A DNA stretch of 64,000 nt. Origin: Straminergon stramineum (Eukaryota > Streptophyta > Bryopsida > Hypnales > Calliergonaceae). Shown here piece after piece: positions 24,481 to 47,453 of this stretch (position 1 is the first letter of the stretch; every line of letters begins with the position of its first letter). The stretch covers positions 21,602,019-21,666,018 of the forward strand of contig OY987270.1 in the NCBI GenBank assembly GCA_963920665.1, given 5' to 3'. The notes under the pieces were generated by a model. It was given only the letters and a program-made list of their open reading frames with translations, was not told where the DNA came from and did not search any database. A program made the translations under genes and the position numbers.

Positions 24481-24822
24481 CGACCTGCCAAGGCCAAGGA
24501 GCCCTTCCGCAGGGAGAGACCCGCCTGGCAAGGGAGCCCCGCCAGGAAGGGGAGCCCCGGCCCCAGCAGCAGCCCCGCTTGGCAGGGGAGGCCCCCGGCT
24601 GGCAGGGAAGCCCCGGCCGCCTGCTGGCAAGAGCCCCCGGCTGGCAGGGAAGCCCCTGGCCGCCTGCTGGGAGGCCCCCGGCTGGCAGGGAAGCCCCGGC
24701 CGCCTGCCGGGAGGCCCCCGGCTGTAAGGGGAGGCCCCGTCCACAGGGGAGCCCCCTGCCTAGGAGCCCTACGAGGCTGCAGGCCGCAGGCCCCAGCAGG
24801 GGCCAGGGGAGGAATTAATCCC
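24481..24822 (+). repeat. GC-rich minisatellite, period about 42 bp
   Basis: Very GC-rich DNA in an AT-rich setting, built of about three to four units such as GGCCGCCTGCTGGGAGGCCC and CCGGCTGGCAGGGAAGCCCC. Proline/glycine-rich open frames on both strands are consequences of the repeat and are not annotated as genes. Confidence 0.75.
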
Positions 24823-34965: not shown

Positions 34966-35579
34966 ATGTCGCTAACGATCTCAGGCGTGTGGTTGATAAT
35001 ATTATGCATAGTTTTTAACTGGTTGTTCGAGAGAGTCTCGGTCCATCGCAGGAATCATGTCAACGTCGACAATAAACTACCGTCGGTAGACGCGAACAAG
35101 AAGAAAGACACGGTGGTCAAAGCAGGCTCACCGAAGTTGCACAAATACGACGTCTTCATAAACCACCGGGGACCAGATGTAAAACTGACGTTTGCTACGC
35201 ACTTAGAAGAGGCTCTGTGCAACGCGGGATTCCACCCCTTTCTCGACGCGAAGTCTGTCGCGCAAGGGCGCCATGTGTTCAACTCGATTGACGAAGCGCT
35301 CGGCGATGCCTGTGTGCATGTGGCTATCTTTTCGCGGCGGTACGCGGAGTCAAAATACTGCCTTCAGGAGCTCTGGGACATGCTGCAGACGCAGAAGGTG
35401 ATCCTACCTGTGTTTTATGATGTCCAGCCCAAGGACCTGAAGGATGTTGACCGAGGGCCTTATGCCCCAGCGTTCCAGAAACACCGGAGGTGTAGGAAGG
35501 TCGAGGAGACGAAGCAGTGGAGGCAGGCACTCCGGGAGATTGCTGACCGCCGAGGTTTCACCAAAGATGAGTTTGCTGG
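34966..35579 (+). CDS. TNL exon 1: N-terminal hydrophobic segment and TIR domain
   Basis: Residues 6-21 (SGVWLIILCIVFNWLF) form a likely signal anchor, followed by a basic, charged linker. The TIR starts at about 60 with KYDVFINHRGPDVK and continues through PFLDAK (box 2), VHVAIFSRRYAESKYCLQEL and VILPVFYDV. Glu135 in the CLQEL motif is the residue that is catalytic for NADase activity in plant TIRs. The donor is GTGAGT at 35,580, leaving phase 2. Confidence 0.9.
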
Positions 35580-38500
35580 GTGAGTCTCATCCGAGTCCCT
35601 TTTCTAGCAACTATCCTCTCCACATAGTATGATTTGAATGGTGAGATAGAACACGAGTAGTTAAGGCTATATTAGCTATATTGGCGGCTTTGAGCACCAT
35701 TGGCGGGGACTTTGAACAAAACGTTCTAGATGCAAATTCTTCGTGCAATTCAAACATTTTAAGCTTTTTGATATCATTTTTGTATCTGCAATAGACTCTA
35801 TCATGTAGATGCAACAAGGCATGTTAGATTTGTCACATGAGCAGAGAAATAATTACAAAATCGGTTAAAGAGAGATGGCACAATTCGCAATGTGAAAACC
35901 GCCAATACAACGAATACAGTTTTACTTACAGAGTTGTAAGCGAGATGAAAATGGAACGGAGGCACACGTGAATGCCTTACTGATGAACTTTTGGCGCCGA
36001 CGTTCCAGGGATGAAGACCTGCTGGTACGGAGCATCGTGGTCGAAGTGTGCACGCAAATGCCAAAAAAACTGGAATCAGATACACGCCGATTCGGCATCG
36101 ACGAGTCGCTCCACGACGCACTGCAACAAGTGGACGCCATGCCCGGCGACAGCGTGGGCATTGTCGGATTATACGGCATGGGCGGAATCGGCAAGACGAC
36201 GCTGGCCGATGAGCTCTACCGAAGCCTCCTTGCTTCAAGTCACAGAGACAAATTCAAAGTCCACAGCTTTCTGAAAGACGTCCGTTCCAATGCGCCATCC
36301 TACCTGCAAAGGGAGCTGGTGCGCGATCTCTTCCAAATGGACATGGGGCGGACCACCGTGCCGTACCGCAAATGGTTCAACAGGTTCAAGAGCCAGAAGG
36401 TAAGGCCATATTCGTGTACACAACCAGAGGCGGTTTTCATAGTGCCAATGACAATTGTACTTTCTCTTTGAACAATCTGTAATTTTCATTCTCTATTCTA
36501 ACATGCTCTACACAATAATGCCTAAAGTAAAAGTGCGCAAATGATATCAAGGTTTGAAGTCCTCAATCTACAGTTAGAATTTGTGTGATCTAGAAAGGTG
36601 TGCACAGAAGTAATGAAAACTGCCGATCTAACCAATAAAGCCATAAGGTGCTTATTGTTGTGGACGACATCGACCACGTGAGCCAGTTCACGGCGCTGAT
36701 CCCGGAGCTCCCGCACCTGGGCCCTGGCAGCCGCGTCGTGGTGACGTCGCGGCACCTGGATGTGCTGCACGCCGCCATGGGACCAGCTGCGCACAAGGCC
36801 GTTTACGAAGTGAAGGAGCTCAAGTGCACGTTCGCCCGGCAGCTGTTCAACTGGCACGCTTTCGGCAGCGAAGAGCCGGATCCTGATGATTTCCGTGAGT
36901 TGGCCGAGAAAGTTGCAGACGTTTGCAGCGGGCTCCCTCTCGCGCTTGAGATCATCGGCGCGTCCCTGTTCGACAAGAAGGACCCGGAAGCTGATCGGTT
37001 CGTGTGGATGGACGCCATCAAAGCGTTGAAGGAGAATGAGAACATTCTGGATAAGGTAGAGCATCCTATTAAATTCCCGGTCTGTGTCGTACGGAATCCA
37101 GCTCCAAGTTAATTCCTAATCCCCATGTTGCCTTATACTTAATTGCGGAATGGATATACCGAGCATGCTTAATCTTAGGAGTACTCACGGCGCATCTTAC
37201 TGGTTTCCATCGATATACCTTGATAGTTTCCAGCAGATCATATTCCTTAAGATCGGATTAAAATGCATTATAAGTAATTATAATCAGGGCCATATAATAT
37301 GGAAGTTGCATACCCGGGATTATCAAAAGTCATTATTAGATTTTTAAAACACATTTGAAGTCTATCTGTGACTGAGATATTTTTGTTCCATGGAAATCAA
37401 TTTACTTAACAGTACATGGTCAATTTCATTAAAATGGCGGTATTCAAATGTCATTTTTCAGACTGCGCGGTCTGAACTGTAAAAGGACATCTAGGATTGT
37501 TATAGATTTCTGACATCTAGGACACTTATAGATCTCAGAAATCTAGAGGGTTTATAGATTTCAGACCACGCAGTCTAAACTATCTATGACATGTCCAGAT
37601 TTTGTACATCTAGGACAAATCTAGATTTCTAACATCTAATACCGTTGTAGATTTTAGACCATGCCAAAAGTAGTGAAATGGACTACCAATTTTCTAGAAT
37701 ACCGCCAATTTACTGGAACACAGCCATTTTAATGAAATTGACCATGTATGCAGCATGCCTGAAACTAATCATGAGAATTGTGACTGTTATCTACCTTCAG
37801 CTGAGGATAAGCTACGACAGTCTTCCCAGCGATGGCGACAAGGCCATGTTCCGAGACATAGCATGCCTCATGATCGGCGTCCGGAAGGAGGTGGCGTTGG
37901 AGGTTTGGAGCTCGTGCCAGTCGTGCAGCGACTACTGCTCCACCTCCAAAGGCCCGCACTTGGCCCTGCGCACGCTCTTGGACAAATCTCTGGTGCGGCT
38001 CGACTCCGGCTCAGGTGAGTTGAGCATGCACGACCAAATTCGCGACATGGGCAGGGACATCGTGGCCAAGGAGGTGCCCAAGGATTATCCGGGGAGGCGA
38101 ACGCACTTGTGGGATACCACAACCGCTGTCAAGGTGTTGAGGAAACATCAGGTCAGTACTACGAGACTTTCACAGTAATTTTGGAATTAGAACAAGTGTG
38201 AGACGCGCTCATTACGATGACTCAAAGTAATGCCGATTGTTACCACAATTAATACGAGAGCCAGCTTATGATTGTTGCACTTAATTTGGGTCTTGCAGTA
38301 AATATAATAATCAGAGTGGTGAATTTAATCCTAGTACGGATGATTCCAGATTAGCGTGGCCTACTGAAATGGAAAAATATCAAAGCCTATGATGACGGGT
38401 TTTTTCCCTTCAAATATTGCGGGCATAACTTGTATGATGCGTTAAGTAAATGCTTAGGGCTCAACAGATGTCAATATACAGTACAATATGCCTTGCCATT

Positions 38501-41500
38501 ATTTCTTAGAAGCAGTAGCTACACCTCATCATGGTACGTCGACTACCAAGGTTGGATATGGTAATTGCAAGGTCGACGATGAACCTCGATTCAAGCATCA
38601 TGATTTTTATGGACCCGAAGAAGACAAAACCTACACATCCATCGAGGTCTTCCATTGATTCGGTATCCGGGCATGAGGGAACCCAATTGGCCAATTCCAG
38701 TGATGAGCAGAGTTCTAGAGGATGTGCCCAGAGCACGTTCACAGTTTTCTCATGACATTCGGCGTCCTGCTTCAATTTAGAAGGCTCTTGCTTTCTTGCA
38801 CTTAGAGGCATTAAAGATCATGGTTCAAAAAGTTTGTTAAGTGGATGCATACACATATTATGTTGCCATGTGCAGGGGACAGGTAGGCTGAGGGGCATCA
38901 ACCTCTCGGCCATGGACCGCCATGGCACACCGACTCCGGAAGCGGAGCAGTTCGCAAGTGTGGAGGAGCTGCACCTGCTTGTTCTGGACGGTTGCGCAGT
39001 CGGTGGTGGCGACTTCTCTCACTTGTCACAGGAATTGCGGTGGGTGCAATGGAGGTCGTTTCCTTTTCCTGAGCTCCCTCCTCATCTGAACCTGCTCAAC
39101 CTCGCAGTTCTGGATCTCACCGACAGCGCCAACTTGTGTCGACTTTGGCAAGACGATGCTCCTCTTGAGGTATGTAAGAAGTTCGCATGATCTTTCTCTA
39201 GATTCACTGACTCTGGAGTCTGGCGGCATGATCGAATAGTTTGGAATTTTGGTTGACAGATGTTTAAATTCCTAAACTCCACCTAATTTGGCTGTAGTTG
39301 CTATTATGTTCCAAGGCAGTTTTCAGTGGGAACCATAGTTTGGCCAAAACTTTCTAGATGCAAATTTAAGTGCAATTCAAACATCAAATTTAAGTGTTTT
39401 GATACCATTCGACTCACTTAGAGAGGGAAAAATATACACATTCGACAGAGAAAGATCGCACAATTGGCAAACCGCCTTACCTTTGATGCTTTTGCAGTTT
39501 CCGAATCTCCAGAGACTCGTTCTAAAAAACTGCAGAGGCTTCGAGAAGCTCCCAGGAAACATAGACCGCAGCATACCAAGGCTACGGGCGCTGGAGATGG
39601 AGAATTGCTCCCTGATCCAGGAGCTCCCCTCGTCGCTCGGCCAGCTGCTGCACTTGGAGCATCTGACGCTGTCCGGCTGCGAAAGCCTCACGGCGTTGCC
39701 AAGTGCAATAGGGAGCCTCAGCAAACTGGAGATGCTGATGCTGAACGACTGCATCCGGCTGAAGCGGCTCCCCCTGGAGCTCGGGAAGCTCTCGAACCTC
39801 ACGGAGCTCAACCTCTCCAACTGCAACAACCTGGAGGAGCTCCCACCCTCCATGGGCAGGCTGCGGAAGCTGAGGGTCCTGCGCATGCGCACCCCGGCCT
39901 CCGTGAAGGCGGACGACCGTTTCGGTATGGCCCTTAGCGACTTCTACGCCCAGCTGCACACCTCGTCCACCTCCCACGTCGTCACGGCGCTCCCGGACAG
40001 CTTCCATGGGCTGCAGGCGCTGGTGTTTCTGGACATGGCGGGCTGCAAGGTGCAGGGCTCCCTGCCCTCCAGCTTCGGAGCCCTCACGGCGCTCACCACG
40101 CTCAACTTGCAGGGCACCCAGTTGGTTGCCGTTGCAGCGCTCCCGCCAAGCGTGCAGAGCCTGAATCTGTTCAATTGCCATCAGTTGGTGCATCTTCCGT
40201 CCTTTAAAGAGATGAGGTACGGTTATATATTCGGTTCTAATATTGCCAAATGTGTTACCAATTCGTAAAAAAATTCTCTGCTCAGCTGATAAATCTAACA
40301 TGTCTTACTGCAGAGACTATCGTTAGAATTCAGATCGAATGATATCAAGATTTAACTTAAAATGTTTGAATTTGCATGATCTAGAAAGATTTGCACCTAA
40401 GTGCTGATGGTAAGTTTGAGAACTGCCAATATAACAAATTTAGGGTCCATAGGTGGTTGAAGTACCTCAATCTGGGCAACTGCCAGAACTTGACTGGCGT
40501 TCCGGGCCTGGAGTTTGTGGATTCTCTGGAGGAAGTCAACCTTGCGGGGTGCACATCTTTGGCGCACAATGTTGTGCACAGCTGCAGAGCTTTGCGCTTG
40601 TGCGGATTGAGCGGCAGTGGCCTTGGTGTGTCTTACGACAATGCCTGGTCTGAGGTGAGTATTGACTTGTCATGATCTACGGAGTCCCTTCAGTTTTGAA
40701 CCTCTTCATTTTCTATCTATATTCAAAATTATAGGTAATACATAGATTGTCTTGTTTAGACTCGGACTAATAATGGAAACTTCGACTAATAATTCTGGAT
40801 TTAGAAGACTGTGCTCTGGGTTAATTGAGGTAACTTGTAGGTTTCACTTTGTGTTACCTACATTATCCTTGTACTTGGTGGAAAAAAGGTTAAAAGAATT
40901 GAACATTGCTCTTAGGGTGAATATGATGATTTGTATAGTCCATGATGTAGGACAAATGTTCTTCTTTCTAATGATGTATAGCTTAACCCAAAAAGGTCGT
41001 GGGCCTTTTTGGGTTTAAAAACATCATTGCTTTTGAAGTGTTACAGGTCTAAATTTCACTAAATGACTAAGGTAAAGAAATCTTAACCATGAAATCTTGT
41101 AGTGTATGTGTTGTGGATGATGTGAACCAAATTTGAAATCATTTGGCCAAATAGATTGCAAGATTATAATATTTTAGTGTTGAAAAAGAATGCTGAAATT
41201 TTTCTAGCAACACATTTGGAGGTGAAATTCAATTTCTAAACCTACTTATATGAAAAAACTTAAAATGATACAACACTTCAAAACTAGCATGCAAATACAT
41301 TGATGAAAGAAAATATAATTCAATTGGCTTGCTGAATCTACAAAATGGCTTTGAAATAGCAAAAAATAGCAAAAAAAGGTTGCAAGAAACACATTTGAGG
41401 TTGAAACCCCTTTCACTAAAATACTTCTCAATCACTTCTTAGATTCATATGAAATTTTAACCACACAAACTAGACTAGTATGTGTGAAAAGAAAATTTAA

Positions 41501-44500
41501 ATGGACACTGTATGAAGAAGAAACAAGCCTCCAAAGTTCAATGTAATCCAAAAATGTTTAGATTTTGAACTTTGAATTGCTCCCAAACATTCAAAACGAC
41601 TTGGATTGAAATGAAAATTTTACCACAATGACTAGACTTCAAGGATATCTTAACCCAACAAATTTCATTAAAAACAAACATTTGATGAAGGAGATTCAAG
41701 CCCCCAAAGTTGTAGCCATCACAATGCAGTTTGGTGAACCCAATTGAACCCTTAAACTTCCAATGGGCTTCCAAAAACTCATTACATCTTGGATTGATTT
41801 GGAAATTTTACAATACAGACTAGAAGAGGGAGCATAGATTTCTTAACAAGTTTTATTGAATTAAAAAATTAGATGCATAAGTTACATCACTTTGAATTGG
41901 AAGACACTTTTGGTCCCCTGGGACACTTAGGGGTTATAGATTATCTTCAAAGAATGGTTTCTCAAGGAATGAGTTACTTCATATCAATGCAAGTTACTTT
42001 GAGTTACTACTCTCCCACTTCTTAGGATGCATGGCAATGTGTCATTCTCTTCTTCAACTCCCTCAATGCATTTTTGAAGAATTGGCATTCCACCTTCCTA
42101 AGAGCTTGGAATGCCAATTTTCTTGGAATGCATTAAGGTTGAAGGATATCTAATTGAGACATTGTCAAGCATTCCATGAAGTAAGAGAATGGTAACTCAA
42201 GGCAACTCTCACTTTGGATGAAGTAACATTCTCATGGATTACCTTCTCAAATAAATGGGTTGTACACTCCCCTCATATACATGGGCACTTTTGTGAGTTC
42301 ATGGGCATTTAACCCCTAAGTGTCACAAACAAAACAACGGAGTTGATGAATTTGGAGGCGAGTTCTAGAAAAAACATAATAAATTGAAGTGTACAAGACT
42401 TGGTTACTAAAGTTGTCACAGTAAAGATTTCAAGCCAACTTCTTGATGAGTGCAGATCTGTAGTTTTTAAGAAAATCCACGGTGCAGATACAAAGATTAT
42501 AAAGCTTGATGAACAAGGTCTTTGAGGAATCCAGGTCATTCTTTGCGTCCAGAAAACATCTGCTCTGATGTTTAGGGGTTAAGGGTTGATTCCCATTTCC
42601 TCATTAATTTTGGAACTTGAATGAATGGAGTGTTGCATGACGATGTTGATATAACAACCCAGCAGTCACGAGATTTCATGGTTGCAGAGAGAACCAGCTT
42701 TGCAACTCATCAGCTGCTACGGCAACGTCATGGGGTTCCTCCCTAATGGTATGACGCAAAAGATCCGGGAGGTTCGCATTGGGGAAGTTGTGATGGACAC
42801 CACCATTTCCAGTGAGACCGAGTGTGTTGCTATGATCATTTGTGTTGTGGCACATGACCAAGGTTGGACTAGTCACCCCTCCCAGGCAGATCCGGCAGAG
42901 AAGGGTCTGTACAACAGCCCCTGTCATCTGGAGGTGAGGGTCATGAGAGATGGCGTCCAGGTCAACAGTGCGCTTCTGTTTCGATTGAAGCACGCTGATA
43001 AACACAACCAAGTGTACCTTGTCACGCTGCGGAGGCACGATCCGTTGGTCCAGTCACTCAAGTGTGGAGACAACGTTTGTGTCTATGCACAAACGTCTTG
43101 GGTGGGATGGAAAATCTCGGTGGAGGAGGGAGCCATATGTGTGGTACACGGTGAAAACGATGACCAAGTTGTGGCAGTTAATTCCAAGTTGTTGAGCAAG
43201 ACTCAGTCCAAAGACGTGGGGCTCCAATTGGGCAAACTTGTGTTGGCAGATGATGCAATTCCACCTCTGGTAAAACCATCCTTTGATGTATGCATTGACT
43301 TTAATATCGTCTTTTCAATCATTTCCTCAATGCTACTGACACAACTTCCCCACTTGTCAGAGCTCCTGCTAGGGCCAAAACAAACTCAAACTGGTGGTAA
43401 ATATGAGGCAGAACTGGGTTGGGTTTCAATTGCAGGTGTCATCTGCTTGTTTGAGCAGCTTAATTCACCCATCATGCAAGAGTGCATATGAGCTGCAATC
43501 CAACTCTTTCAACAACAAGTGCTTGCGCTTGAGTATGTGGTTACAAATATACAACAACGCCCCTGTGCTATAAGCATTCTTCTTTGTTGTTTGAACAAAG
43601 TGAAGGGATTTGGCTTTCAATACAGCTGGATTCACAAAGGCATCTACACAAAGTAGTGAAATTAGGTTGCCTTAACAATTAAGTTGCCTTCCATCAAGAA
43701 AGTTACTTTACAAGTCATCAAAATCAACAAATATTTCTAAAAATATTTTCATTTGTATACAAGGAGGTTCATGAGTCCCAATTACAACAATACTTAATTC
43801 AAAAGTAGTGCATTCTTGTACAATAACTGAAAATATTTATTTAATGTCAAAGGTTGAAAAATTAGTGTGGAGCTACCTAAATTTCACTATTTTGTGAGAA
43901 TGTTTTACCTTACCATCAAAGTTCATCGAACTTGATACACATAGCATATTAAGTGAACTTCATTGAAGTTTTAATCATTTGATATACATGGTTTATTTAG
44001 TGTTTAATTAGTTCAAGATTTCTCCATGTAATTTTACAGCTGTTGTGAAAAAGTGCATGTACAAGGTAAATTTGTGATGTTTTATCTAAGTCTGAGTGAG
44101 AAGGCTCGCAATATATATAATCCCATAATTGGGAATAAACTTGATTTTAATTATCAAAGAATTTTACTGCAGGTGGAGTTCTTGCAGAATACTAGTATCA
44201 AGAGTGATAAAATCTGTGCGGAATCAAGCAGTAGTCCACCATCAAAAGAAATTGCCATTATGTACAAGCACACAAGACCAAGTTTGAATGAGGTGAGTGT
44301 GATAGATATGCCTTCCTTGGGCTTATATTAATTGGTGACTGATACCATACTTTAAGAGCAAATGTGGCAAAAGAGTGCCAATTAATTAATTAATTAAAAA
44401 TCTCCTAAATTAATGGCATAATTGTTCTAGAATTAATGAAAAATCTGTCAAAATTTTCTTCAATTTTTTTGAAAGTTTGGCACTTGTATGAATAATAATA

Positions 44501-47453
44501 CGGTTTAGCATGTCACTGAATCATTCATTTGTTGCATTCAAGAGTACTTTGTCCTCAAACATATGCTTAAGGCTTAATGTCTTTCACTTCTTCACTTGAG
44601 TGTGAGTTTCTTTTGCTCTAAAGTGCTTAGCAACATAGCTGAACAAAGGCATTTCAAGCTATGATATAGCCAATAGAAATTGATTTCTATTGATATTAGG
44701 GTCAAGTTTGTTAAGTCACCTTAGAGTTTCAATAAGATAATGGTCTTTTGATTTATAATATTACTATTTTTTCACTCTTAATAGCTATTGGATTAAGAGC
44801 TATTGGATAAGGAAGAACTTCGTGTCTTTAAATTTAGGTTAGTAGTTTCAGCAACTTTTGAAGGAGCAGGAAGGAGAGGTCATAATGCACCATGAATTTT
44901 AGTCACCTTTATTCTTTTTGAGCTGATTATGATATTTAGAAGCATTGAGGACTAATCTTAATAATTAAAATTGAGAGAGGAGGTGAAGATTCTTGGTATC
45001 TTGCCTCACTTTACACATAAGTTTATTAGTGTGTTATATATTCAAAGCAAATGGTATGAAAAAATTTGTATAGATGTATGGATATTTTTTTTATTATACT
45101 ACTATTTTGAAGTTATTTTATTAAAAATTAGGAAAAAAACAACATCCGCTATTCTAGTAATGAGTTAAGTTGATTGAAGGTCCAAAGTATCTTTTTAGGA
45201 TTCAATTTTTCTTGAAACATGGTACTAGAATTATTCTTGTGAGTCATAATTTTCCTATGGAAAATATTTTATGAAAAGTATTAAATGAAAAAAAAATTAG
45301 ATAATTATTAGAGTTAATTGTAAAGGGTGTGCAATAAAGGACTAGGTGTTGGAGTTTGAGAAAAACATAGGATGAAACTCCTTAAAGCACACGATCTTGG
45401 TCTAATAGAGTTTGGTGTTGTGTTTCTTTTATACTATTTTTAGTGAAACCTTCCTTTGACATCCCTTCTACAAATTGGGGGTTACTTTATGATTAACCCT
45501 AAGCGTTGAGATTCATCTCTAGAATTGACAATTTGAGATAAATCATTATAAAGTGTTATTTGGAAGCATATTTTGGAATTGGTATACAAATAAAAGTTGT
45601 AGATTGTAATTTATTGATTTCATTTGTACCATTAGATTCACCAATGCTATCACCAATATTTTTTTTTATAGATTTTGAAAGGGAAATTTCCAAAATAATT
45701 CTAAATTTGATTACAAGCAAAATTATATCTTTTTTTTAGTACCATTTTTTGGAATGGATTAGAAATAAGGTTCTCTTCTCATGGAGATTTTTTGAAATTT
45801 TTGAATTTTGAACATCTATGACCTCATTTAGACAAATCCATAAGATGAAATTTGGGAGCTCCAAGAGCCCCTGAGTTATCTTGAGTTCCCAAGCTTTGGG
45901 AACTCCCCACAACAGCAGGATGACATGGCATAGTCACTACTACGTCAGAAAATAATATATTTTCAAATTATTTTCAAAAATATTTTTTTTGATAAAAAAA
46001 ATATTTTTTTAATTCAATTTTAAATTTATCAGTACTTTTTAGAAATTTTTTTGGAAAAAAAAAAATATTTTTTTTTTCAACACATTATGGGCTGGTTCCC
46101 AATTTCTAGCAGCACAAGGAACAATGCAAAGAACAACCCTGAAACGGGCTCTCGGAGCCCTCAAATGCCCCCTAATGCAATTTTGAATTAGAGTCAATGC
46201 AATTTTGGCTTGGTCAACTACTTGACATACTTGCACACATGTAATTTTAGAAACATAAAAATACTCTAGTAACACCAAATCCAACCCTTAGATAGGACTA
46301 CAACTTAATAAAGTATCTCCACAAATTAGGATGACTTTCATCCAAGCAATAAGAAGGATGAAACTTGAGTTTCAATCTATTCATCATCCAAAAAATGGAC
46401 ATCAGAGGGCTTAGGGGTTACCACTATTTATCTTCTTAAGTTGTTTTCTGGAAATGTGTGCAAATTCTCAAGCAACAAGCACCTTGGACTATTCCTCTCT
46501 TGGATGGCCACTACACTTGGACAAATTCCTGGAGGCTTCTGAGACCTGGTGAGGGCATTGTATCCTTTACAGCCGAAGGCTCCAATGACATCCATGTAGC
46601 AATTTCCACAGCACCTGAAACTCAAGTTCCAATGTACGAGATTGTCATCGGTGGGTGTAGAAATGGTACATCTATTGTACGAAGACAGGCCCAAGGGCTC
46701 AATCTTACTTTCGTGGCCACGGTGGGTGTGATCAATCCTCAGAGCCCTAACAGACTCTGGGTATCAATTGATAAAAGAACAAGCATCATCCAAATTGGTC
46801 AAGGAGAGCCTAGTGACCAAGATATCCTTTCTCAATACATGGATCCATACTTTATTTTCGAGGCCCAATTCATCTCGTTTACAACATGGGATGTGCCCAT
46901 CACCTATTCCAATGTTGTGATTCAGGAATTGGAACCCATATCGGTTGGTCCGTCACATGACGTGGAAGAAGAGAAACTTATTCATCTCGACGTGGTGATG
47001 AATCAAAAGTGGTCAATCTCACCCCGTCATGGACAATACACTTGGGCTCACTATTGGAAGCTCCCAAGAATGGGACAGGGGGTGTTGGCATTTGTAGCTG
47101 AAGGGAACTCGGACATCCATGTAGCAATTTCAGCCCGGCCTCAAACCATGAAGCCCATGTACGTGATTATCATCGGAGGATGGAATAATACACAGTCCGT
47201 GATTCAGAGAGAAAGTGGAGGACGGAATCTGTGTGTGGTGCAAACTGGAATCACCAGCAATACAAGCTGTTATTGGGTGTCTCTGGATGATCGAACAAAA
47301 CTCATCCAAGTGGGGAGAGGCATGCCATGCAAGAATACCTTTTGCGTGTGGATGGATCCGGATTTTCTATCCGAATCTTTGTATTTTTCCTTCACTACTT
47401 TCTCGACATCAATCACCTACTCTAGTGTGCAGATTGCAACTTTACCCAAGTGA
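34966..47453 (+). CDS. TIR-NB-ARC-LRR receptor with C-terminal tandem Methyltransf_FA domains (gene model)
   Basis: Proposed exons: 34,966-35,579; 36,009-36,399; 36,648-37,055; 37,801-38,151; 38,876-39,169; 39,498-40,216; 40,453-40,654; 42,688-43,269; 44,173-44,292; 46,473-47,453, about 1,553 residues. All introns are GT-AG and reading phase is kept at every join. TNLs are intracellular immune receptors: LRRs and extra domains sense a pathogen effector, NB-ARC switches on ATP exchange, and TIR assemblies act as NADases that start cell-death signalling. Domains in order: hydrophobic helix (6-21), TIR (about 60-195), NB-ARC (about 235-560), LRRs (about 610-990), post-LRR domain (about 994-1187), linker, and two Methyltransf_FA-like domains (about 1228-1390 and 1404-1553). 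No stop or frameshift is seen in the exons. The start ATG is preceded two codons earlier by an in-frame TGA. Exon 1 to 8 joins are secure by family comparison; joins 8-9 and 9-10 are inferred. Alternatives are a shorter TNL ending at 43,491 or 43,573. Confidence 0.7.
35680..35907 (+). mobile_element. GGCGG-type MITE in TNL intron 1
   Basis: Its ends are TATTGGCGGCTTT and GAAAACCGCCAATA. The interior (TTCTAGATGCAAATT, GTGCAATTCAAACAT, TTTTGATATCATT, TCTAACATG in complement) recurs in introns 2, 5 and 6. Noncoding. Confidence 0.7.
36009..38151 (+). CDS. TNL exons 2-4: NB-ARC domain
   Basis: Exons 36,009-36,399, 36,648-37,055 and 37,801-38,151. Motifs: P-loop GMGGIGKTT (261-269, Lys267), kinase 2 VLIVVDDID (336-344), RNBS-B GSRVVVTSR, RNBS-C near VYEVKELKC, GLPLAL (430-435), RNBS-D near FRDIACLMIG, and MHD (547-549). 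All residues needed for nucleotide binding and switching are present. The exon 2 acceptor at 36,007-36,008 is chosen because it joins FAG to DEDLLVRSIV, as in other TNLs. A second in-phase acceptor at 35,932-35,933 would add 25 residues. Confidence 0.9.
36429..36624 (-). mobile_element. GGCGG-type MITE in TNL intron 2 (reverse)
   Basis: Reverse complement of the intron 1 copy: GGCGGTTTTCATAGTGCCAA, then TCTAACATG, AATGATATCAA, GATCTAGAAAG, ending GAAAACTGCC. It fills most of this 248-bp intron. Confidence 0.65.
37056..37800 (+). other. TNL intron 3
   Basis: A 745-bp intron, with donor GTAGAG and acceptor CCTTCAG. It contains a 334-bp MITE (37,414-37,747), and the remainder is AT-rich without other features. 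Confidence 0.8.
37414..37747. mobile_element. MITE with perfect 25-bp inverted termini in TNL intron 3
   Basis: The left end ACATGGTCAATTTCATTAAA, continuing to AATGGC, is exactly the complement of the right end. TA next to the ends may be the target duplication. The interior carries several CATCTAGGA / AGATTTC(T/A)GA repeats and inverted GACC(A)CGC(A/G)GTCT motifs. Perfect termini suggest a recent insertion. Confidence 0.8.
38152..38875 (+). other. TNL intron 4
   Basis: A 724-bp intron with donor GTCAGT and acceptor TGTGCAG. No repeat or gene recognised; short frames at 38,506-38,811 are chance. Confidence 0.75.
38876..40654 (+). CDS. TNL exons 5-7: leucine-rich repeats
   Basis: Exon 5 (38,876-39,169) starts GTGRLRGINLS, the usual NB-ARC to LRR transition. 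Exon 6 (39,498-40,216) encodes canonical plant LRRs such as LEHLTLSGCESLTALPSAIG and LTELNLSNCNNLEELPPSMG. Exon 7 (40,453-40,654) adds WLKYLNLGNCQNLTGVPGLE. Exon 6 ends in phase 2 and exon 7 supplies the matching base, giving an Arg across the join. About nine to eleven repeats. The 239-codon minus-strand open frame over exon 6 is a shadow. Confidence 0.88.
39315..39476 (+). mobile_element. GGCGG-type MITE in TNL intron 5
   Basis: Ends GGCAGTTTTCA and TTGGCAAACCGCC. The interior has CAAAACTTTCTAGATGCAAA and GTGCAATTCAAACATC. It stops 21 bp before the exon 6 acceptor. Confidence 0.65.
40230..40437 (-). mobile_element. GGCGG-type MITE in TNL intron 6 (reverse)
   Basis: Interior matches in reverse orientation: TAAATCTAACATG, GAATGATATCAAGATTTAAC, TTTGAATTTGCATGATCTAG, with the distal end GAGAACTGCCAATATA. 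It fills nearly the whole 236-bp intron. Confidence 0.65.
40987..41943 (+). mobile_element. TTAA-type element, diverged family 1, in TNL intron 7
   Basis: TTAA lies at 40,983-40,986. The right end CACTTAGGGG is followed by TTAT (mutated TTAA). The interior keeps ACCATGAAATCTTGTAGTG and TAGATTGCAAGAT, the family 1 block. The left terminus (CCCAAAAAGG) is modified, and a small palindrome CCCAAAAAGG..CCTTTTTGGG lies there. Confidence 0.55.
42313..42578. mobile_element. TTAA-flanked element, 266 bp, in TNL intron 7
   Basis: TTAA lies at 42,309-42,312 and 42,579-42,582, with termini CCCCTAAGTG and GATGTTTAGGGG. The interior does not match the other families. It ends 105 bp before the exon 8 acceptor. 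Confidence 0.75.
42688..43269 (+). CDS. TNL exon 8: post-LRR beta-rich domain
   Basis: After the last LRR (ALQLISCYGNVMGFLPNG), the protein shows alternating beta-strand-like stretches (VAMIICVVAHD, CHLEVRVMRDG, VYLVTLRRHD, CVYAQTSWVGWKISVEEGAI). By position and pattern this resembles the C-JID / post-LRR jelly-roll domain of TNLs, but I cannot confirm the family. The donor proposed at 43,270 (CTG|GTAAAA) is weak. Without it the frame runs on to TGA at 43,489-43,491, adding 73 residues. A third option splices to an acceptor at 43,434-43,435 and ends at TAA 43,571-43,573. Confidence 0.65.
43270..44172 (+). other. TNL intron 8 (inferred)
   Basis: Its first 220 bp remain open and relatively GC-rich, so part may be coding in an alternative transcript (stop at 43,491, or exon 43,436-43,573). 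The rest is AT-rich with no recognised element. Confidence 0.45.
44173..44292 (+). CDS. TNL exon 9: short linker exon (predicted)
   Basis: A 120-bp stretch bounded by CTGCAG| and |GTGAGT stays open in the phase that fits exons 8 and 10. It encodes about 40 polar residues (rich in Ser and Lys), as expected of a linker. It is supported only by splice signals and phase. Confidence 0.5.
45497..46417 (+). mobile_element. TTAA-type element, family 2, with a nested insertion
   Basis: TTAA lies at 45,493-45,496. The right terminus CTTAGGGG is followed by TTAC (mutated). It matches 15,381-15,950 at both ends (GATTCATCTC.AGAATTGA; AAAATGGAC near the right end). The extra length comes from the insert at about 45,854-46,163. 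Its right end lies 55 bp before the exon 10 acceptor. Confidence 0.75.
45854..46163. mobile_element. Foldback insert nested in family 2 TTAA element
   Basis: Imperfect inverted ends GGGAGCTCCAAGAGCCCC and CGGGCTCTCGGAGCCCTC enclose A/T tracts. The 15,381-15,950 relative lacks it. An internal GACATGGC..ACGTCAG pair resembles the small foldback at 28,010-28,215. Confidence 0.55.
46473..47453 (+). CDS. TNL exon 10: two tandem Methyltransf_FA-like domains
   Basis: 326 codons in one exon, ending TGA at 47,451-47,453. Two related halves repeat one pattern: GHYTW..SW / GQYTWAHYWKL, then (V/A)F.AEG..DIHVAIS, PMYEIVIGG / PMYVIIIGGWNN, a variable loop, LWVSID / YWVSLDDRT, IIQIGQG / LIQVGRG, YMDP / WMDPDF, ISFTTW / FSFTTF and ITYS. 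This is the Methyltransf_FA (PF12248) pattern known from arthropod farnesoic acid O-methyltransferase-like proteins and many other proteins, a compact beta domain whose enzymatic role is doubtful. The frame is closed upstream by TAA at 46,437-46,439 and has no ATG near the start, which argues for splicing from an upstream exon. The acceptor chosen is CTCAAG|C at 46,471-46,472. Confidence 0.8.
   Translation, partial: QQAPWTIPLLDGHYTWTNSWRLLRPGEGIVSFTAEGSNDIHVAISTAPETQVPMYEIVIGGCRNGTSIVRRQAQGLNLTFVATVGVINPQSPNRLWVSIDKRTSIIQIGQGEPSDQDILSQYMDPYFIFEAQFISFTTWDVPITYSNVVIQELEPISVGPSHDVEEEKLIHLDVVMNQKWSISPRHGQYTWAHYWKLPRMGQGVLAFVAEGNSDIHVAISARPQTMKPMYVIIIGGWNNTQSVIQRESGGRNLCVVQTGITSNTSCYWVSLDDRTKLIQVGRGMPCKNTFCVWMDPDFLSESLYFSFTTFSTSITYSSVQIATLPK

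Follow-up and report, generated by a model that had tools for sequence, protein, structure and literature searches.

Immune receptors of the NLR-ID type, for example rice Pik-1 and RGA5 with HMA, join a canonical NLR and an extra, non-canonical domain in one protein, and TNLs with the Roq1-type winged helix, which we take to be represented by ROQ1 and RPP1, have the order TIR, NB-ARC, WHD_ROQ1, LRR and beta-rich post-LRR domain. To our knowledge, few NLR ligands are known outside flowering plants, and glycan sensing has been demonstrated for no intracellular NLR. Tandem-repeat galectins (galectin-8, galectin-9) are cytosolic glycan danger receptors with two beta-sandwiches, and the PF12248 domains of animal and bacterial proteins are often found in tandem, in some proteins presumably with Gal_Lectin, F5/8C, GH16, DM9 or LamG as partner domains. 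A passage of PMC7931364 describes how animal galectin-8 binds exposed glycans and so marks ruptured vesicles, and the main text of Chia et al. 2024 (PMC11218826) reports an expansion of NLR-IDs in the mosses Ceratodon and Sphagnum.

Here we describe a predicted TNL gene of the moss Straminergon stramineum with a tail of two PF12248 domains, located in a window of 64,000 nucleotides (the whole stretch of DNA that was analysed; C8:21602019-21666018 of an assembly of 326 Mb in 59 contigs). The gene shares the order of its parts with ROQ1 and RPP1 but differs from them in the two PF12248 domains that follow and in a hydrophobic segment before the TIR; Pfam C-JID gave no match to its exon 8. In contrast to Pik-1 and RGA5, it is a moss TNL, and its extra part is a PF12248 pair with a predicted beta-sandwich fold. 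The tail is homologous to the PF12248 domains of animals and bacteria, whereas its partner here is TIR or TIR-NB-ARC-LRR; to galectin-8 and galectin-9 it is alike in predicted fold alone, without a galectin sequence match, with uncertain domain placement and fused to a TIR receptor.

Literature searches (Methyltransf_FA with NB-ARC and TIR; PF12248; galectin with NLR and integrated domain) returned nothing relevant; among the matches listed, no title or abstract opening named the architecture. By term search, the tandem PF12248 domain was not named in the main texts of four NLR surveys, and the terms 'farnesoic' and 'Methyltransf' were absent from the main text of PMC11218826 and from the searchable text of PMC7145615 and PMC4759884. 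A passage of PMC11126693 names a Methyltransf_11-NBS class, Methyltransf_11 being another Pfam family. The Ceratodon fusion described below may be an unnamed row in the supplementary domain table of PMC11218826. The tandem PF12248 would thus be a new tail within the known NLR-ID class, with a TIR-only sister form.

Gene anatomy and Ceratodon counterparts

The predicted gene consists of ten exons, all bordered by GT/AG and compatible in phase; spliced together they read through without a stop for 1,556 codons, or 1,553 amino acids with the exon-7 acceptor at 40453 (Table 1). The preliminary description of the locus proposed a TIR-NB-ARC-LRR exon series followed, on the same strand and in phase, by an exon with two PF12248-type domains, and the Pfam matches and the single frame bear this out, except that the acceptor of exon 7 is better placed 9 nt downstream, because the three extra residues are missing from the Ceratodon protein P0001. 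TIR, P-loop NB-ARC, winged helix and LRR follow each other in canonical order with Pfam matches above cut-off and the motifs GMGGIGKTT and MHD, and the NB-ARC protein and the non-canonical domain form one protein in the spliced model as well as in Ceratodon P0001 and P0002. The profile search that the preliminary description had proposed for exon 10 matched PF12248 in two stretches of the frame, with a score of 145.6 bits (cut-off 24.2) and E 1.1e-42. As described earlier, exon 10 has 326 codons and no ATG near its start, the first in-frame ATG being codon 54, within the first domain. Its acceptor has a pyrimidine-poor context. Exon 1 has the donor ctgg/gtgagt and the same start as P0001.

Exons 5 and 9 had no Pfam match, and exon 8 had none except one chance-level row. 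A fold search with the exon-8 model (mean pLDDT 68.6) gave no clear relative, with ROQ1 and RPP1 absent among the best 50 of either list, and the homology of exon 8 to the paralog on C5 stops near the donor.

Table 1. Features of the window gene and of related loci. Plain numbers are window positions; entries with a prefix lie elsewhere in the genome.
Feature	Position	Strand	Content	Evidence or remark
Minisatellite	24586-24739		GC-rich, unit ~41 bases, 3.8 copies, 88% match	Among several overlapping ORFs on both strands
Exon 1	34966..35579	+	Hydrophobic segment (residues ~3-21), TIR with YCLxEL	Pfam TIR 92.7 bits; hydrophobicity
Hydrophobic start	34966-35035	+	Possible membrane anchor	Hydrophobicity
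Exon 2	36009..36399	+	TIR/NB-ARC linker, P-loop GMGGIGKTT	NB-ARC 30.9 bits; borders; P0001 80% identity
Exon 3	36648..37055	+	Second part of NB-ARC	NB-ARC 48.5 bits; P0001 81%
Exon 4	37801..38151	+	Winged helix (WHD_ROQ1), MHD motif	PF23282 43.8 bits; borders
Exon 5	38876..39169	+	LRR region begins	Identity 87% to P0001, 60% to C5 paralog
Exon 6	39498..40216	+	Leucine-rich repeats	LRR_14 76.4 bits
Exon 7	40453..40654	+	Final LRRs	Alternative acceptor 40444 possible; 40453 fits P0001
Exon 8	42688..43269	+	Beta-rich post-LRR domain of this TNL subfamily	P0001 80%; donor ctg/gtaaaa
Exon 9	44173..44292	+	40-codon linker, both ends phase 0	P0001, 24/40 residues identical
Exon 10, part 1	46473..46973	+	First PF12248 (predicted galectin-like), link to second	85.6 bits; predicted fold
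Exon 10, part 2	46974..47453	+	Second PF12248 (predicted galectin-like), stop codon	64.1 bits; predicted fold
C5 paralog, exon 2	L010:6279-6281	-	In-frame TAA	Just past P-loop
C7 gene	L013:4876-7811	-	TIR exon, then exon with TIR/NB-ARC linker and four PF12248	
C7 single-domain ORF	L013:3766-4434	+	One PF12248	Convergent to C7 gene
C1 ORF	L015:5856-6692	-	PF12248, then BTB/POZ domain	Without TIR
C2 cluster	C2 ~8.28-9.40 Mb (L040-L047)		TIR and exon-8 matches	Without PF12248

A protein search with the model of the window gene, scored on residues 1040-1556 across 3,215 candidates, returned three matching proteins, all of them from Ceratodon purpureus. P0001 (KC19_5G042800, 1,546 aa), an annotated (deposited) gene model with TIR, NB-ARC, WHD_ROQ1, LRR and PF12248, is 79% identical to the window model over residues 1040-1556 and continues across the two questioned splice junctions just as the model predicts, so that the donor at 43269, exon 9 and the acceptor at 46473, as first proposed, agree with it residue by residue (...VEFLQNTSIKSDEI...SNEQQAPWTI...). 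Identity between the two proteins is 75–87% in exons 1-8, 60% in the linker exon and 80 and 83% in the PF12248 domains; the added domains are therefore conserved like the NB-ARC, and the linker has drifted most. Ceratodon has one more TNL that carries PF12248, namely P0002 (1,522 aa, likewise an annotated, deposited gene model). P0003 (1,170 aa) is without PF12248 and has its annotated end just past its own exon 8, its TIR falls inside the fused clade of the TIR tree (support 90/98), and the missing tail reflects either domain loss or a shortened gene model. The TNL-PF12248 architecture is not unique to the window gene, as two deposited Ceratodon proteins share it; a TIR-only version exists as well. 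The reading of the preliminary description that a single receptor gene has integrated the double domain is supported. Its pointer to gymnosperms is not, the nearest deposited proteins being those of the moss Ceratodon and the assembly measuring 326 Mb, and neither is any reading through the 'methyltransferase' name, in view of the predicted fold (below).

The window gene shares its hydrophobic start with P0001 and the C5 copy (best 19-residue mean 2.0–2.4 in the three); the stretch is weaker in P0002 (1.2) and P0003 (1.6) and absent in the four TIR-PF12248 proteins looked at (<1.0). The catalytic glutamate of TIR NADases is located in a WCLxEL-type motif, which at the sequence level was found as YCLxEL in nine of nine TIRs of fused or closely related proteins. 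Fifteen of 20 other TIRs of the genome also match the CLxEL-type pattern, and the motif is therefore not special to the fused genes.

Related loci in the genome and domain phylogeny

We found nine PF12248 matches in the genome, in the window (n = 2), on C5 (n = 2), on the minus (n = 3) and plus (n = 1) strands of C7 and on C1 (n = 1). All three multi-domain loci lie downstream of a TIR match on the same strand, with gaps of 11.0, 9.4 and 1.0 kb; the chance of a TIR within a 12-kb reach is ~0.3% per locus, as calculated from at least 150 TIR matches in 326 Mb, and the adjacency of PF12248 and TIR exceeds chance. The remaining two loci are the BTB-type ORF on C1 and, next to the C7 gene, the ORF with a single domain.

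The C5 TNL has all parts in the same order as the window gene (identity 42–68% in exons 1-8, 40% in exon 10), and its exons 8 and 10 are likewise separated by a short exon, 37 or 44 codons long and in phase 0 (..CDESSTAESKDVK.. against ..CAESSSSPPSKEI..). This copy may be dead because of the in-frame TAA in its exon 2, which suggests a decaying or differently spliced paralog. In the C7 gene, a TIR exon with two phase-compatible donors precedes an open frame of 702 codons, in which the TIR/NB-ARC linker (GKDELLMKDIVDDVV) comes first and leads directly into the four PF12248 domains; Pfam matches to NB-ARC and LRR are absent from this gene. Because linker and PF12248 domains share one exon, their fusion is independent of splice prediction. 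The convergent single-domain ORF groups with Ceratodon P0038 in the domain tree.

Exon 8 matched 16 places in the genome, namely the window, C5 and 14 places on C2, where two pairs resemble fragments of one gene each. The matches of the C2 cluster include several with stop codons, and some copies there therefore look decayed. Among the C2 places read (n = 8), six reach an in-frame stop 10–49 codons past the exon-8 match and those near 8.28 and 8.37 Mb are open across the stretch read; the stops are consistent with exon 8 as last exon, a splice upstream of the stop being possible. The genome profile search gave no PF12248 match on C2, and the PF12248 module looks like an addition to this TNL subfamily. 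A genome search with EDS1_EP gave no match, its controls being equally silent.

With the C7 protein as query, for which only the 7,995 candidates with most shared words were scored, at least 26 proteins matched, among them P0006 (871 aa, TIR and four PF12248, 59% identity to the C7 protein) and Ceratodon P0013 (539 aa) and P0014 (537 aa), each with TIR and two PF12248. P0011, from an ENA contig of 1.14 Mb, has four PF12248 after a start that resembles the linker, and its C terminus is hydrophobic; it may be a tail-anchored protein with an overlooked TIR exon. Eight of the 15 distant matches, which include animals and bacteria, have other Pfam domains, and in six of these eight we take the extra domains to be carbohydrate-related (Gal_Lectin, GH16, F5/8C, LamG, galactose-oxidase-like). 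Exon 10 alone as query returned 11 proteins, including the single-domain P0038.

The domain tree comprised 61 domains from 22 of the 38 returned proteins (16 omitted), several rows being of metagenomic or assembly origin, and the BTB-type domain on C1 was removed by the 80-position length filter. Forty moss or moss-like domains form one clade (95/88), in which the TIR-PF12248 and single-domain rows are a nested clade (24 rows, 99/97). The TNL first domains cluster across both paralogs (8 rows, 94/79), and the second domains do not form one resolved clade; because of the grouping of the first domains, the tree suggests that the PF12248 pair predates the TNL paralogs. In the TIR tree (20 of at least 150 genome TIRs, with a long-branch warning), the TIR-PF12248 and TNL-PF12248 groups are each supported, their mutual relation not being settled by this tree. 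The intact frame with its domains, the full-length Ceratodon counterpart, the same-order paralog, the TIR-only cousin and domain conservation at the level of the NB-ARC together show, from genomic and protein sequences, the anatomy of the predicted fusion.

Predicted fold and proposed role of the tail

The exon-10 model, built on 9 sequences (pTM 0.56, mutual placement of the domains uncertain), is nearly all beta, and galectins and carbohydrate-binding modules are its best structural matches. The galectin beta-sandwich is recognizable in the model, and each added domain is predicted to be a galectin/CBM66-like beta-sandwich. Agreement is good within single domains, and both domains jointly reach a TM-score of only 0.32–0.38 to tandem galectins (rmsd ~18). 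Exon 10 has no galectin sequence match, PF12248 being the only Pfam family matched at E up to 1, no sequence match among solved structures, where a profile search gave one chance-level row, and none in NCBIfam. The most conserved PF12248 residues (Y55, W96, G109, D124) are common to bacterial and animal relatives and may for this reason serve folding over binding, and a shared galectin-like fold alone is no proof of sugar binding. The model suggests a carbohydrate-binding-like fold behind the Pfam name 'farnesoic acid methyltransferase'.

The best explanation of the whole, to which we give a probability of about 0.6, is a fused moss TNL in which the double PF12248 tail would gate the receptor by binding a ligand, a glycan being the most likely one. 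As in the preliminary description, we infer that the double domain is probably a sensing tail. The N-terminal hydrophobic segment would hold the receptor at a membrane, its domains lying in the cytosol, and the two beta-sandwiches of the tail would bind a ligand, most likely a glycan of microbial origin or from the plant's own damaged compartments. Binding would free the NB-ARC from autoinhibition, and the TIR domains, once assembled, would signal enzymatically. In the TIR-PF12248 cousins, which have no NB-ARC switch, the TIR would be controlled by the sensor itself. Galectin-8 offers an animal precedent for a cytosolic role of such a tail. The more specific proposal of a moss receptor lineage in which tandem galectin-like domains sense cytosolic glycans, from microbes or ruptured own compartments, and switch the TIR either via NB-ARC-LRR or directly (TIR-PF12248x2/x4) is tentative and, in this full form, rather unlikely.

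Another possible, if doubtful, reading is that of an integrated decoy, comparable with HMA in rice, in which the tandem domain mimics a host protein targeted by an effector and is bound or modified by this effector, no sugar being bound. Several abstract openings assign this role to integrated domains, and the stand-alone single-domain relatives (the C7 single-domain ORF, Ceratodon P0038) could be the guarded protein, but these cluster with the TIR-PF12248 clade and not with the TNL domains. Moreover, both TNL paralogs have kept the pair, and from the window gene to its Ceratodon counterpart it has changed no more than the NB-ARC, whereas an arms-race decoy would be expected to change faster. 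It is unlikely that the PF12248 domains serve receptor oligomerisation, folding or placement rather than sensing: the residues shared with bacterial and animal relatives and the two to four tandem copies would fit, but the C2 relatives of the same TNL subfamily are without PF12248 match, and PF12248 is therefore not required for the basic fold. Two adjacent genes, with the TNL stopping in intron 8 and the PF12248 domains encoded by a gene of their own, would account for the frame beyond exon 8, which runs to a stop ending at 43491, for the annotated end of P0003 and for the stops shortly after exon 8 in several C2 relatives. We rejected this very improbable arrangement on the fused P0001 and P0002 and on the C5 paralog, which has the same order and the conserved small linker exon; exon 10, moreover, has no in-frame start codon ahead of the first domain. 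Hardly credible, and rejected on the predicted fold, is a tail with the activity of a farnesoic acid O-methyltransferase, for which only the Pfam family name speaks and for which a Rossmann-type fold would be expected instead of the nearly all-beta model with its galectin-type matches.

If the proposed glycan-sensing receptor lineage is real, it would give plants an equivalent of the galectin-8 danger receptor of animals, with a direct link to TIR signalling, and mosses may couple lectin-type sensing to a TIR immune signal. A moss lineage in which a lectin-like tandem is joined to TIR, in some proteins through the NB-ARC-LRR switch and in others lacking it, makes cytosolic galectin-type danger sensing in plants directly testable, and the moss TIR-PF12248 forms also make it testable how a TIR is gated without NB-ARC.
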